Shown here: positions 31,829-36,944 of the stretch, in pieces
Numbering within the stretch: position 1 is the stretch's first letter
Layout of the letters: the number at the start of each line of letters is the position of its first letter
From: Thermus amyloliquefaciens
Lineage (GTDB): Bacteria; Deinococcota; Deinococci; Deinococcales; Thermaceae
NCBI RefSeq assembly: GCF_000744885.1
Contig: NZ_JQMV01000003.1
Span: 186,001-250,000, forward strand
Length of the DNA: 64,000 nt
Direction of reading: 5' to 3'
The notes under the pieces: generated by a model
What the model was told of the DNA's origin: nothing
What the model saw: the letters and a program-made list of their open reading frames with translations, nothing else
The model's database searches: none
Position numbers and translations under genes: made by a program

Positions 31829-32581
31829 ATGGGAGGTTACATTCCCGAGCCCACCTTCACCCTCGAGGGCTGGCACATCCTCCACGACTTCCGCCGCTTG
31901 GACTATCCCGCTTGGTTTGCCGCTTCCCCCGAGGAGCGCCAGGCGGCCTGGGCGGAGCTGAGGGAGGTCCTGAAGGGGTGGGAGGAGGTGGAGGCGGAGG
32001 GCAGGGGGTCCTTTGGCGTGTACCAGGTGGTCACCCCCAAGGCCGACCTCCTCTTCTTAAACCTGCGGGAGAGCCTGGACGCCCTTTTGGAGGTGGAGGC
32101 CAGGCTCAACAAGAGCCTGTTCGTCCGCTACCTAAGCCCTGCCTACGGGTTTTACTCCGTGGTGGAGCTGGGAAGCCAGACCGGGCCCCTGGACCCCGAG
32201 GCGCCTTACATCAAGCCCCGCCTCACCCCCCGGGTGCCCAAGGGGGGGTATGTCTGCTTCTACCCCATGAACAAAAGGCGGCAGGGGCAGGACAACTGGT
32301 ACCTGCTTCCCGCCCGGGAGCGGGCCGAGCTCATGAAGGCCCACGGGGAGACGGGGAGGAAGTACCAGGGCAAGGTCCTGCAGGTGATCAGCGGGGCCCA
32401 GGGCCTGGACGACTGGGAGTGGGGGGTGGACCTCTTCAGCGAGGACCCCATCCAGTTCAAAAAGATCGTCTACGAGATGCGCTTTGACGAGGTCTCCGCC
32501 CGCTTTGGCGAGTTCGGGCCCTTCTACGTGGGCAAGTACCTGGGGGAGGAGGCCTTGGGCCGCCTCCTGGGGGTGCTATGA
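31829..32581 (+). CDS. hemQ: Coproheme decarboxylase (HemQ, chlorite-dismutase family)
   Basis: Last enzyme of the coproporphyrin-dependent haem pathway; it converts coproheme to haem b. The 250-residue pentamer-type sequence has the catalytic Tyr145 in YPMNKRR and a likely proximal haem ligand His172 in KAHGETGRKYQGKV, followed by ISGAQGLDDWEWGVDLFSEDP. The distal position, near SGAQGLDDW, carries Gln and not the Arg of true chlorite dismutases, supporting the HemQ assignment. The next gene overlaps by ATGA. Confidence 0.93.
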   Translation: MGGYIPEPTFTLEGWHILHDFRRLDYPAWFAASPEERQAAWAELREVLKGWEEVEAEGRGSFGVYQVVTPKADLLFLNLRESLDALLEVEARLNKSLFVRYLSPAYGFYSVVELGSQTGPLDPEAPYIKPRLTPRVPKGGYVCFYPMNKRRQGQDNWYLLPARERAELMKAHGETGRKYQGKVLQVISGAQGLDDWEWGVDLFSEDPIQFKKIVYEMRFDEVSARFGEFGPFYVGKYLGEEALGRLLGVL

Positions 32582-33066
32582 GGCTTTGGGCCTTCAGCCT
32601 CTTCCGGGTTCTGCCGGAGTTCCGCCGCCTCGAGGCCGAGGGGCAGGAGCACCTGAAGGAGGAGTTCGCCCTCCTCCTAAGCCGCTGGCAGGCCAGGGAG
32701 GGTTTTTTGGCGGTCCACAGCCTGGTGGGGTTTTCCGCGGAGGCCGACTTCCTCCTGTGGCAGGGGGTGGAGGACCCTAGGGCCCTCCAGGCCTTCCGCC
32801 GGGAGCTCCACCGCACCCGGCTCATGGGCTACCTGGAGCCCGTGGCCCTTTACCTGGACCGGGGGGAGGGGGAGCCGGGGGAGGGGTTTTTGGCCCTCCT
32901 CCCCTACGGCCTGGAGGGGGCCTTGCCCGGGGGCGTGCGGGCCTTCCGGGGGGAGAACCTCCTGGCCTTGGAAGGCCCGTGGGAGGTCCTCTTTCCCCTC
33001 ACCCTGCGGGAAGGGGGCCACCTGGCGGTGCGCCGCACCCCCAGGGAGCTTTTGGACGAGCTCTGA
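32578..33066 (+). CDS. Half-size chlorite-dismutase-like protein
   Basis: 162 residues. The first 100 (FSLFRVLPEFRRL, EEFALLLSRWQAREGFLAVHSLVGFSAEADFLLW, ALQAFRRELHRTRLMGYLEPVALYL) look like the first ferredoxin-like half of the HemQ/Cld fold. The haem-binding half is missing and is replaced by about 60 residues with no recognised motif. It is translated from an ATGA overlap with hemQ, so a role with HemQ, such as a partner or coproheme-handling subunit, is plausible but unproven. Not expected to bind haem by itself. Confidence 0.7.
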   Translation: MRLWAFSLFRVLPEFRRLEAEGQEHLKEEFALLLSRWQAREGFLAVHSLVGFSAEADFLLWQGVEDPRALQAFRRELHRTRLMGYLEPVALYLDRGEGEPGEGFLALLPYGLEGALPGGVRAFRGENLLALEGPWEVLFPLTLREGGHLAVRRTPRELLDEL

Positions 33067-33090: not shown

Positions 33091-33675
33091 CTAGAGGCTT
33101 GCCCAGAGGGCAACCCCCCCGAAAAGGAGAAGGCCCAGGGCCAGGGTGAGGAGGGCCGCCCGCCGGGTCTTGCGCAGGAGAAGGCCCAGGAGGAGCCCGG
33201 TGAGGCTCACCAGGGCCAGGAAGAGGGCGGAGGCGTCCAGGACCCACCTCCAGGCCCCGGGGGTGTCCCGGCCCTTGTGCAGGTCGTTCAAGGCGGCCAC
33301 CAGGCCCGCCTCCGTGAGGGTCAGGGTGTAGGCCCCGGTCTTGGGCTCCACTTGGGCATCGGCCCCGTAGCCGGGGGCGCGGAAGGAAAGCCATACCGTT
33401 CCTCCGCTTTCCCCGTGTTCCGCCACCCGGCCCCGCAGGCCCAGGGCCCGGAGGTCCTCCGCCAGGCGGAGCCAGTCCACCGCCTCCCCCTGCAGGTAGG
33501 GGGCCCCGGGAAGGGTGCCCGATGCCTTTCGCACCTCTCCCGCCCCAAACCACTCCGGGTGGTTCAGGGTGAGGCCGGTGAGGGCGAAGAAGAGGAGGGA
33601 GAGGAGGGCCAGCATGGAGAGGTAGAGGTGGAGGGTCCGGGCCCAGGCGTAGAGCCGGGCCCGCAGGAGGCCCAC
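33091..33675 (-). CDS. PepSY-associated membrane protein
   Basis: 194 residues from GTG at 33675. An N-terminal helix (LHLYLSMLALLSLLFFALTGLTLNHPEWF) matches PepSY_TM proteins, followed by an extracytoplasmic domain with a PepSY-like stretch (GADAQVEPKTGAYTLTLTEAGLVAALNDLHKGRDTPGAWRWVLD) and two C-terminal helices. Such proteins often belong to flavin-based extracytoplasmic electron transfer systems with ApbE. Last gene of the three-gene unit; it starts 7 bases after DUF2271. Confidence 0.8.
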   Translation of the reverse strand: MGLLRARLYAWARTLHLYLSMLALLSLLFFALTGLTLNHPEWFGAGEVRKASGTLPGAPYLQGEAVDWLRLAEDLRALGLRGRVAEHGESGGTVWLSFRAPGYGADAQVEPKTGAYTLTLTEAGLVAALNDLHKGRDTPGAWRWVLDASALFLALVSLTGLLLGLLLRKTRRAALLTLALGLLLFGGVALWASL

Positions 33676-33682
33676 CCCACCC

Positions 33683-34222
33683 CTAGGCCTTCCGGCCGTA
33701 ATCAAGGACCACCTCCTTGAGCTCCCCCTGGAGGGGGTAGGCCCTTTGGAAGGGCTTGTCCCCGATCTCCACCCTTTCGCGGAAGAGCTCGTAGGGGCCG
33801 TGCTCCCGGGCGTACTCCACGCACACGTGGTAGGCCCCCTGGACCACCGGCTTTCCCCTTTCGTCCCGCCCGTCCCAGGCCACGGCGTACCGGCCCGGGG
33901 GACGGGTGGGGCCGGAGAGGGTGCGCATCCTCTCCAGGTCGGAAAGGCCAAAGTACCGCCTGAGTGAGTTCCACCAGCGCTCCCCCTTTCCCGGCATGAG
34001 GAAAAGCCCCAAGGTGCGGACGAGGTTGCCCCTTTCGTCCTCCACGTAGACGGCCACATAGGGGGCCCGGTAGCGGAACCCTCCGCCCTCGTAGGCGAAG
34101 CTCACCCGGAGCTCCATCCCCTGGGGCCAGGGCTTCCCTTGCCCCCGGGCCAGGCCCAAGGCTAAGGCCCCGCCCATTACCCGTCTAAAGAAGCTTCGCC
34201 GGCTGTAGTAGCGTTTGAGCAT
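33683..34222 (-). CDS. DUF2271-family exported protein with Tat-like signal
   Basis: 179 residues. The N-terminus YYSRRSFFRRVMGGALALGLA is a twin-arginine-type signal, so export in folded form, perhaps with cofactor, is expected. The rest is an Ig-like beta domain with SGPTRPPGRYAVAWDGRDERGKPVVQGAYHVCVEYAREHG, the DUF2271 signature. SGPT (103-106) resembles the SGAT site to which ApbE attaches FMN, but has Pro for Ala and lacks the upstream Asp. AGGAGGAAGGG precedes ATG. It overlaps apbE by 38 bases. Confidence 0.82.
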   Translation of the reverse strand: MLKRYYSRRSFFRRVMGGALALGLARGQGKPWPQGMELRVSFAYEGGGFRYRAPYVAVYVEDERGNLVRTLGLFLMPGKGERWWNSLRRYFGLSDLERMRTLSGPTRPPGRYAVAWDGRDERGKPVVQGAYHVCVEYAREHGPYELFRERVEIGDKPFQRAYPLQGELKEVVLDYGRKA

Positions 34223-34988
34223 CCCTTCCTCCTTCTGGGCCGGACACGGGGCCTTCCGGGGTGAAGAGGACCCCCCTGGCCCCGAAGGCCGCCAGCAGGG
34301 GAAACCCTTCCCTTCCCAGAACGAAAAGCGCCTTGGCCAGGCCGTCCGCCAGGGCGGCGGAGGGGCCTAGGACCGTGGCCTGGAGGCCGGGGGCGGGCCG
34401 CTTGGTGCGGGGGTCTAGGAGGTGGGGGCCCTTATGCCGCAGGCCGCTGGTGGCCACCCCGCCTTCCCCCAGGGGGAGGACCAGGGCGGGCGGGGCGTTG
34501 TCCGGGCCCAGGGGGTTTTCCACCGCCACCTCTGCCCGCCCCGGCCCCTTGCGGGCCAGGTCGCCGCCCAGGTTCACCAGGGCCGCCCTGGCCCCCGCCC
34601 TAAGGGCGGCCTCCGCCGCCCGGTCGGCGATGTAGCCCTTGGCCAGGCCGTCCAGGTCCAAGGGGGCCAGGACCTCCACCTCCTCTCCCCGGAAGCGCAG
34701 GGCCTCCCCCCCGTGCCGGGGGGCGGGGTGGAAGGCCCCCCCCGTGGCCTCCTGGAGCCTTGCGGCCAGGGCCAGCACCTCCCGCATCTCGGGGCTTGGC
34801 CGGCCGCCCCCTTGGCGCACCAGGCGGGTGAGCTCGCTCTCCCGGTGGCGGCTGAAGACCGCCTCCAGGCGCTCCACCTCCGCCAGGACTGCCCGGAAGG
34901 CCCTGCCCGCCCGCCAGGGTGCGGCCAGGATCTGGACCTCCAGGAAGCTTCCCAAGACCCCTTCCCACCTGGCCCCGTACCGGCCCAT
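34185..34988 (-). CDS. apbE: FAD:protein FMN transferase
   Basis: ApbE attaches FMN covalently to Thr or Ser of exported redox proteins. The 267-residue protein shows RHRESELTRL, LDLDGLAKGYIADRAAEAAL, VNLGGDLARKG, GGVATSGLRHKGPHLLDPRTKRP and a final helical part. No lipobox or signal peptide is evident, unlike many ApbE proteins, so it may act in the cytoplasm before Tat export. First gene of the apbE-DUF2271-PepSY unit, divergent from the response regulator. Confidence 0.92.
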   Translation of the reverse strand: MGRYGARWEGVLGSFLEVQILAAPWRAGRAFRAVLAEVERLEAVFSRHRESELTRLVRQGGGRPSPEMREVLALAARLQEATGGAFHPAPRHGGEALRFRGEEVEVLAPLDLDGLAKGYIADRAAEAALRAGARAALVNLGGDLARKGPGRAEVAVENPLGPDNAPPALVLPLGEGGVATSGLRHKGPHLLDPRTKRPAPGLQATVLGPSAALADGLAKALFVLGREGFPLLAAFGARGVLFTPEGPVSGPEGGRDAQTLLQPAKLL

Positions 34989-34995
34989 GCCCTAG

Positions 34996-35001
34996 AGGGT
35001 A
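34996..35001 (-). promoter_or_regulatory. -10 element of leaderless apbE promoter
   Basis: TACCCT on the minus strand, seven bases, then ATG. Confidence 0.5.
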
Positions 35002-35010
35002 GGGGCCGGC

Positions 35011-35054
35011 GGTTAGGCGGGGGTTAGGGCTTGGGCATAACCCTGGTCTAACCC
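35011..35054. promoter_or_regulatory. Operator: two oppositely oriented pairs of GGTTA repeats
   Basis: GGTTAG occurs at 35011-35016 and 35022-35027, starts 11 bases apart. On the opposite strand GGGTTA occurs twice, also 11 bases apart (35054-35049 and 35043-35038). One helical turn between direct repeats is the usual layout for OmpR/PhoB-type regulators. The block lies between the two divergent -10 elements and covers the -35 region of the response regulator, so it likely controls both units. Confidence 0.65.
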
Positions 35055-35062
35055 GCAGGCGG

Positions 35063-35068
35063 CATACT
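35063..35068 (+). promoter_or_regulatory. -10 element of leaderless response-regulator promoter
   Basis: CATACT, six bases, then GTG at 35075. Confidence 0.5.
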
Positions 35069-35074
35069 AAAGCC

Positions 35075-35734
35075 GTGCAGGTGCTCCTGTTGGAGGACGA
35101 GCCCCGCCTGGGCCGGGCGGTGGAGGGGGCGCTTTTGGCCCAGGGGTACGGGGTGCGCTGGGCCCAGGGTCTGGAGGAGGCCCGGGGGATTTTCTTGGAG
35201 TTGGAGCCGGACCTCATGGTCTTGGATGTGCGCCTGCCTGAGGACCCCGACGGGGGCTTCCGCTTTGCGGAGGAGGTCCGGGGGGCGGGCTACCGGGGGC
35301 CCATCCTCTTCCTCACGGCCCGGGACGCCCTGGAGGATAGGGTCCTGGGCCTGGACCTGGGCGGGGACGATTACCTGGTGAAGCCCTTCCACCTGGAGGA
35401 GCTTTTGGCCCGGGTGCGGGCCCTTTTGCGCCGGGGGGCGGAGCTCAAGGCCAGCCGGGTGCGCCTGGGGCCTTTGGAGGTGGACCTGGCGGGGCGGGCG
35501 GTCTTCCAGGAGGGGCGGCGGGTGGACCTCTCCTTGAAGGAGTTTGCCCTCCTGGAGGCTTTTGTCCTCCACCCGGGCCGGGTCTTTGCCCCGGAGGAGC
35601 TGGCGGAGAAGGTCTTTGGGGACGGGGAAAAGGTGGGGGCGGTGAAGGTCTACGTGCACTACCTGCGGCAGAAGCTCCACCCCGGGGTGGTGCGCACCGT
35701 GCCCGGGGGGTACCGTTTTGGCCATGAGCCTTAG
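35075..35734 (+). CDS. OmpR-family response regulator
   Basis: 219 residues. The receiver domain has acidic LLEDEP at 5-10, the phospho-acceptor Asp51 in LDVRLPE, Thr in LFLTARD and Lys in YLVKPFHLEELLARV. The winged-helix output domain (VDLSLKEFALLEAFVLHPGRVFAPEELAEKVF, VKVYVHYLRQKL, VRTVPGGYRFG) binds DNA. Likely target: the repeat block directly upstream. Overlaps the histidine kinase by 11 bases. Confidence 0.94.
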   Translation: MQVLLLEDEPRLGRAVEGALLAQGYGVRWAQGLEEARGIFLELEPDLMVLDVRLPEDPDGGFRFAEEVRGAGYRGPILFLTARDALEDRVLGLDLGGDDYLVKPFHLEELLARVRALLRRGAELKASRVRLGPLEVDLAGRAVFQEGRRVDLSLKEFALLEAFVLHPGRVFAPEELAEKVFGDGEKVGAVKVYVHYLRQKLHPGVVRTVPGGYRFGHEP

Positions 35735-36944
35735 GGCCCGCCTGGCCCTTTTCCTGGCCCTTTCCATAGGGCTTGCCCTCCTCTTCCAGGGGGGCTTGAG
35801 CTACCTGGCCTTCCGGCGCCTCCTCGAGGCGGACCTGGACCGCTCCCTCCGCTTCTACGTGGAGGCCCTCGCCGAGGGCAGGAGGCCCCCAAGGGGGGAG
35901 TTCGCCTTCCGGCTCGTGCAGGGCGAGGCGGTGCACAAAAGCGAGAACTTCCCCGACCTTCCCAGGCTTTCCCCAGGGGCTTACTGGCGGGGAGGGTGGC
36001 GGGTTTTGGTCCTCGAGGTGCCGGGGGGTACCCTCAGCGTGGCCCGGTACGACCCGGGGGCGGCGGGGGCCTTGGCGCGCTTCCGCTTGGCCCTTTTGGC
36101 AAGCGGGGCCCTCCTTACCCTCTTGGCGGTGCTCTTGGCCTCGAGGCTGGCCGGGGCCGCCTTGGCCCCCCTTTCCCGCCTCACGGAGGTGGCCCGGCGG
36201 GTGGCGGACTCCGGGGACCTCTCCCACCGGGTGGACCCGGGAGGGGGCGGGGAGCTCCAGGCCCTGGCGGAGAGCTTCAACCACATGTTGGAGCGGCTTG
36301 AGGCCTTTTTGGAGAGGGAGCGCCGCTTTACCCGGGATGCCGCCCACGAGCTAAGAACCCCAGTGGCCGCCGCCTTGGCCCAAGTGGAAGGCGCAGAAGC
36401 GGGCTACCTACCCAAGGAGGAGGCCCTCCAGGCGGCCAAGGAGGAGCTTCTGCGCATGAAGCGCCTGGTGGAGGCCCTTTTGGTCCTGGCCCGGGAGGGG
36501 CGGGTGGAGAGGATTCCCCTGGACCTGGCCCAGCTGGCCCGCCAGGAGGCCGAGGCCTTCGGGGTGCCCTACCGGGGCCCGGAAAGCCTTCCCTTTCTGG
36601 GGGATCCCCTCCTCCTGGCCCAGGCCCTGGGGAACCTGTTGCGGAATGCCTTTGTGCACGGGGAGGGGAAGGGGGTGGAGGTGGGGCTAGGGGTGGAAGG
36701 GGAGGAGGCGGTTTTGGAGGTGCAGGACCAGGGGCCGGGGATGCCCGAGGAGGCCTTGAAGGAGGCGGGAAGGCCCTTTTTCCGGGCCTCGAGGAAGCCC
36801 GGGGAGGGGCTTGGCCTCTCCGTGGCCAAGAAGGTGGCCGAGGCCCACGGGGGGCGGCTGGAGCTTCAGCCCAACCGCCCTTCCGGCCTCCTCGCCCGCC
36901 TCCGGCTTCCCCTCCCTAGCGAAGCCGCTTCAGGGCCTCCTTGA
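35724..36944 (+). CDS. Sensor histidine kinase
   Basis: 406 residues. Two transmembrane helices (about 5-30 and 122-148) flank a roughly 90-residue extracytoplasmic sensor, then a HAMP domain, the dimerisation helix with phospho-acceptor His208 in FTRDAAHELRTPVAAAL, and the ATPase domain: N box GNLLRNAFVHG, G1 DQGPGMPEEA, F box and G2 GEGLGLSVAKKVAEAHGG. The small sensor has no recognised fold. Partner of the upstream regulator. The 3' end overlaps ruvA tail to tail by 29 bases. Confidence 0.94.
   Translation: MSLRARLALFLALSIGLALLFQGGLSYLAFRRLLEADLDRSLRFYVEALAEGRRPPRGEFAFRLVQGEAVHKSENFPDLPRLSPGAYWRGGWRVLVLEVPGGTLSVARYDPGAAGALARFRLALLASGALLTLLAVLLASRLAGAALAPLSRLTEVARRVADSGDLSHRVDPGGGGELQALAESFNHMLERLEAFLERERRFTRDAAHELRTPVAAALAQVEGAEAGYLPKEEALQAAKEELLRMKRLVEALLVLAREGRVERIPLDLAQLARQEAEAFGVPYRGPESLPFLGDPLLLAQALGNLLRNAFVHGEGKGVEVGLGVEGEEAVLEVQDQGPGMPEEALKEAGRPFFRASRKPGEGLGLSVAKKVAEAHGGRLELQPNRPSGLLARLRLPLPSEAASGPP

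Follow-up and report, generated by a model that had tools for sequence, protein, structure and literature searches.

Putative direct-repeat operators of an OmpR-type response regulator at the divergent leaderless promoters of apbE and the regulator gene in Thermus

Results

The 86-bp intergene between apbE and a response regulator (RR) gene (34989-35074) in the window, i.e., the whole 64,000-nt stretch of Thermus amyloliquefaciens DNA analyzed here, houses four short half-sites which, with a probability that we put at roughly 0.8, constitute two operators of the adjacent OmpR-family RR, a protein that would activate its own gene and an envelope redox/efflux regulon. This reading is supported by the position, spacing, and conservation of the half-sites, their rarity genome-wide, the shared architecture of the promoters, and gene linkage in other genera; counting against it are a pair kept upstream of yceI in four genomes with no RR ortholog and a similar word at the gene of another regulator, RR3.

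The RR gene (35075-35734, plus strand, GTG start) encodes a 219-aa protein with a receiver domain (PF00072, 70.3 bits; cut-off, 30.2) and a winged-helix Trans_reg_C domain (PF00486, 53.8 bits; cut-off, 26.2). It is overlapped by the gene of its cognate HisKA-type sensor histidine kinase (35724-36944, plus strand; HAMP, HisKA, and HATPase_c domains), whose ATG at 35724 was placed by ortholog alignment. The minus strand carries, in divergent orientation to the RR gene, apbE of the FMN transferase family (34185-34988; PF02424, E value of 7e-35), a gene for a DUF2271 protein, the predicted ApbE substrate (33683-34222; PF10029), and one for a PepSY-like membrane protein (33091-33717; PF16357 and PF03929). 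The three are adjacent, as in PepSY-like flavinylation clusters, and their products are predicted to form an extracytosolic flavin electron-transfer module. Flavinylation of DUF2271 has been shown (PMC8238504). Whereas the published target motif of ApbE is [S/T]GA[S/T], all the Thermus DUF2271 orthologs examined have SGPT (within LSGPTRPPG), with P in the place of A and the T kept. Since the DUF2271 protein has a Tat-like N-terminus (RRSFFRR) and ApbE has no obvious signal peptide, the flavin may be attached to DUF2271 before export. Two adjacent chlorite-dismutase-family proteins, the second of them a weak match, are encoded at 31829-33066 (plus strand) and end beside the PepSY gene.

Within the intergene, GGTTAG starts at 35011 and 35022 (35011-35016 and 35022-35027), and TAACCC, which is GGGTTA on the minus strand, is found at 35038-35043 and 35049-35054, so that both pairs have an 11-bp phase; the positions and spacing reported in the initial annotation are thus correct. 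A repeat search of the region recovered the same GGTTAG/TAACCC families. GGTTA-N6-GGTTA has two matches in the 64-kb window, both in this block, against 0.05 expected from dinucleotide shuffles. Two opposed pairs of a single 5-mer, both phased at 11 bp, arose in 55 of 20,000 shuffles of the 86-bp intergene, and in 210 of 20,000 when spacings of 9 to 12 were permitted. For a single sequence this evidence is modest (p of ~0.003 to 0.01), suggestive and short of conclusive; what decides against chance is that the pairs are kept in 18 Thermus genomes.

The RR ortholog (77 to 100% identity) was present in 18 of the 27 Thermus genomes sampled. TAACC-N5-CTAACC was found in the RR promoters of all 18, with half-site starts at -37 and -26 relative to the RR start codon (in G015, -38 and -27), so the pair passes the test of conservation in related Thermus on which the initial annotation had staked its proposal. 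In the alignment of these promoters (54 columns, 18 promoters, 17 distinct sequences), the sole invariant columns are the 11 half-site bases, and the -10 (CATACT) is nearly invariant. An 11-bp direct repeat near -35 in 18/18 promoters is what is expected of an OmpR/PhoB-family operator, with its repeat of ~10 to 11 bp. On the apbE side the word reads YTAACN-N5-CTAACC, followed by TACCCT at a 14-nt offset and then by the start codon, the distal half-site being looser than the promoter-proximal one. The apbE gene itself was found in 17 of the 18 genomes with the RR and in none of the 9 others, an association partly expected from linkage. The exception is G016, in which apbE and DUF2271 were not found and the PepSY match was partial; its RR-side pair is intact.

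In the window, the apbE-side operator, CTAACC-N5-CTAACC, would span 35011-35027 on the minus strand, with the promoter-proximal half-site at 35011-35016 and the distal one at 35022-35027; it is conserved beside apbE with a fixed phase and a fixed offset to the -10. The proposed -10 of the leaderless apbE promoter, TACCCT (34996-35001, minus strand), is conserved in the aligned apbE promoters and lies 14 nt from the start of the proximal TAACC. The RR-side operator, TAACC-N5-CTAACC, would span 35038-35053 on the plus strand, with the distal half-site at 35038-35042 and the proximal CTAACC at 35048-35053, as delimited by the ortholog alignment. The proposed -10 of the leaderless RR promoter, CATACT (35063-35068, plus strand; ATACT is conserved across orthologs and the first base varies), is likewise at a 14-nt offset from the start of its proximal TAACC and lies six bases ahead of the GTG start. 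A promoter scan of the intergene found no -35/-10 pair at either divergent promoter. Each predicted operator occupies the -35 position of its own divergent leaderless promoter, and -10s placed a few bases ahead of the start codons fit the divergent leaderless promoters of the initial annotation.

The RR-side pair is separated from the apbE-side pair by 6 to 11 bp in most genomes, by 21 to 25 bp in three, and by 51 bp in two; in G009 the gap reaches ~720 bp, yet both pairs survive and the apbE-side pair adjoins a partial apbE match. Since neither the phase of 11 bp nor the offset of 14 nt to each -10 changes although the gap spans 6 to ~720 bp, the pairs are best taken as two separate operators, one per divergent promoter. 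The direct-repeat operators proposed earlier are supported, as two independent sites and not as a single block of four half-sites. The same variation bears on a reading of the inverted repeats as a hairpin in RNA or DNA (an attenuator, terminator, or cruciform) in place of a protein site. The arms (35011-35026 and 35038-35053) are 81% complementary and the region folds better than its shuffles (z = -3.2), but the loop length would vary with the gap, so neither a hairpin nor a single palindrome is the conserved element; moreover, the apbE/RR intergene contains no terminator-like site, the predicted starts of the two transcripts lie outside the hairpin, and the yceI promoters described below have one pair only, with no inverted partner. 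We rejected the hairpin, despite the good folding, as highly improbable.

A strict scan for the promoter architecture gave 90 matches in the 27 genomes, not all of them attributable to this RR; the reversed pattern gave 4. When one mismatch was tolerated, five genomes gave 30 matches and the control none; the genome studied here had five such sites, again against no control match. They precede apbE, rr, a yceI-dioxygenase gene pair (G000:C3:1764764; PF04264 and PF00775), a SHOCT gene followed by that of a second OmpR-type regulator, RR3 (C3:329710), and htrA, which encodes an HtrA-type protease with trypsin-like and PDZ domains (C3:452180). The SHOCT-RR3 and htrA sites are possible targets, less surely so than yceI-dioxygenase. 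The search for 11-phased repeats elsewhere in the genome and at orthologous loci that the initial annotation had recommended yielded rare further sites as well as orthologous ones; the targets it had named, apbE-DUF2271-PepSY and the RR, are retained, and the regulon is likely wider than it predicted, taking in yceI-dioxygenase and efflux operons.

These efflux operons come from other Thermus genomes. An extra pair is found 3' of the kinase gene in G006, G010, G011, G016, G021, G023, and G026; the one in G010 lies ahead of an operon that includes TolC-type, membrane-fusion, ABC, and MacB-type genes. Pairs also stand ahead of other TolC-type genes in G007 and G009, followed in G007 by membrane-fusion and RND pump genes. 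The presence of the module before yceI-dioxygenase and, in other Thermus, before efflux operons gives the regulon the look of a redox/efflux stress response of the envelope; with flavinylated electron transfer, YceI, a dioxygenase, and efflux among its functions, its likely context is redox stress at the envelope or stress from toxic compounds.

Both half-sites of the yceI site are present in 19 of 21 orthologs. Four genomes with no RR ortholog also have the site: it is intact in G013, altered in G004, and weakened or partly decayed in G003 and G025. This persistence and the similar word at the RR3 promoters (CTTAAC-N5-CTTAACC or CTTACC-N5-CTAACC, with the same 14-nt offset) make an overlap with a paralog conceivable, and the pairs could be operators of a paralogous OmpR-type regulator of overlapping specificity, such as RR3, or of both proteins. 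Three of the four genomes (G003, G013, and G025) do have RR3. G004, in contrast, keeps two such sites and RR3 is not among its six OmpR-type regulators, and the rr and apbE sites accompany the gene of the present RR in every genome that has it, rearranged ones included. We regard a paralog as a decidedly unlikely owner of the pairs and retain the adjacent RR in that role.

Several other elements were seen in the course of these scans. The yceI promoter contains a conserved palindrome, GCTAYG-N5-YRTAGC, over its -10/start region (L132:2788-2808, corresponding to G000:C3 ~1764787-1764807), which is possibly a second operator, that of another regulator. GTGTAAC direct repeats with a 14-nt offset to the -10 precede a ketoacyl-synthase-III-like gene in many Thermus genomes (L227:1515, plus strand; L228:1184, minus strand; L229:1507, minus strand; L233:1946, plus strand); having the same geometry and a different word, they presumably serve another regulator and were set aside from this regulon. 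Also set aside as a target was TAACCTGTGGATAACC, present in nearly every genome, which contains the DnaA-box-like TGTGGATAA. The gene of another OmpR-type RR of this genome (L232; G000:C3:575500-579500, minus strand) has a leaderless promoter with CTGACC-N5-CTGACA in an 11-bp phase, at an offset of 15 to TAGACT, so the promoter layout recurs among Thermus OmpR-type regulators.

Outside Thermus, three genomes of other Thermaceae genera (G035, G043, and G028) carry an RR ortholog of 63 to 64% identity, divergent from a cluster coding for a small secreted-looking protein, a SHOCT protein, a dioxygenase sharing 40% identity with that of Thermus, ApbE, DUF2271, and PepSY. All three have 11-bp TAAC pairs before the RR gene, and such a pair is also present on the opposite side in G028 (GTAACCCCTCGGTAACC) and, on a reading of the sequence, in G035 (GTAACTGCTCCGTAACC). 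The dioxygenase and SHOCT genes, which in Thermus are located away from apbE behind promoter words of a similar kind, thus adjoin it in these genera. The linkage is independent support, as the adjacency of the dioxygenase and SHOCT genes to apbE played no part in finding the sites. In G049 (RR identity of 72%) the region between the divergent apbE and RR genes (L259:7530-7575) has a single palindromic pair, GTTAAC-N5-GTTAAC, with a -10 at the 14-nt offset in either direction; the two promoters apparently share this operator. At about even odds, we suggest a Thermaceae-wide envelope redox/efflux regulon under one uncharacterized two-component system, in which the operon genes of the relatives (SHOCT, dioxygenase, apbE, DUF2271, and PepSY) would be dispersed in Thermus, each piece with a copy of the promoter bearing the operator at -35.

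Discussion

We propose that the sensor kinase phosphorylates the RR, a dimer of which would bind each CTAACC direct repeat head-to-tail in its 11-bp phase. On each leaderless promoter, with its weak -10, the operator would stand in for the -35 element, and the phosphorylated RR would contact and recruit RNA polymerase in both directions, raising expression of both the rr-hk operon and apbE-DUF2271-PepSY. The sign of the effect is deduced from the operator position and the absence of a -35 alone. The RR could instead bind and repress one or both promoters (negative autoregulation), as an operator in the -35 region could equally block RNA polymerase and leaderless promoters with a -10 only have been reported to be active in Deinococcus-Thermus (PMC12340547). 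Repression is nonetheless unlikely in our view: the distance to the -10 is exactly 14 nt at all the targets, suggesting contact with the polymerase, of which a repressor acting by blockage would have no need, and BqsR activates from the same position (PMC4682146).

The literature searched, largely without subscription journals, yielded no report of a Thermus regulator of this kind; the mechanism is textbook, while the operator, the spacing rule, and the regulon appear to be new. For this two-component system, with no report in that literature, the analysis supplies a precisely defined operator open to testing together with a short list of targets, and it yields a simple rule for OmpR-type targets on Thermus promoters: TAAC-N7-TAAC, with 14 nt to the -10. 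By linking YceI, efflux pumps, and a secreted-type dioxygenase with a flavinylated electron-transfer module, it also hints at what the module does apart from iron uptake.

Among known systems, BqsR/CarR of Pseudomonas aeruginosa resembles the present one in being an OmpR-type RR with an 11-bp phased repeat (TTAAG-N6-TTAAG), whose downstream pentamer overlaps the -35 of the bqs promoter, and in its autoregulation, which is predicted here (PMC4682146). The Thermus system differs in its word (CTAACC-N5-CTAACC), its leaderless promoters, and its gene set. A BqsRS identity, considered for its iron link, was ruled out by the operator word, and the Fe2+ sensing of BqsS should not be transferred to the Thermus kinase. 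A genome contig search yielded distant regulators only, at no more than 45% identity; their loci were not used, save for one check in P. aeruginosa, where the PA7 locus, on a reading of its sequence only, appears CopR-like and lies beside a cupredoxin-like gene. The nearest solved regulators by sequence, Mycobacterium tuberculosis PhoP and BasR/PmrA, are moderately similar OmpR-family members with other repeat sequences and other regulons; PhoP binds 7-bp direct repeats separated by 4 bp, which gives the 11-bp phase seen in Thermus (PMC4832192). PepSY-like flavinylation clusters share the grouping of apbE, DUF2271, and PepSY and the predicted transmembrane flavin electron transfer, but in Shewanella and Caulobacter they are regulated by Fur (PMC8238504), whereas a dedicated two-component system would serve here. 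Leaderless promoters with the -10 adjacent to the start codon and no canonical -35 are reported to be common in Deinococcus-Thermus (PMC12340547); the predicted promoters of the Thermus RR and apbE genes are of this type, with the difference that the direct repeat of a regulator would fill the -35 position.
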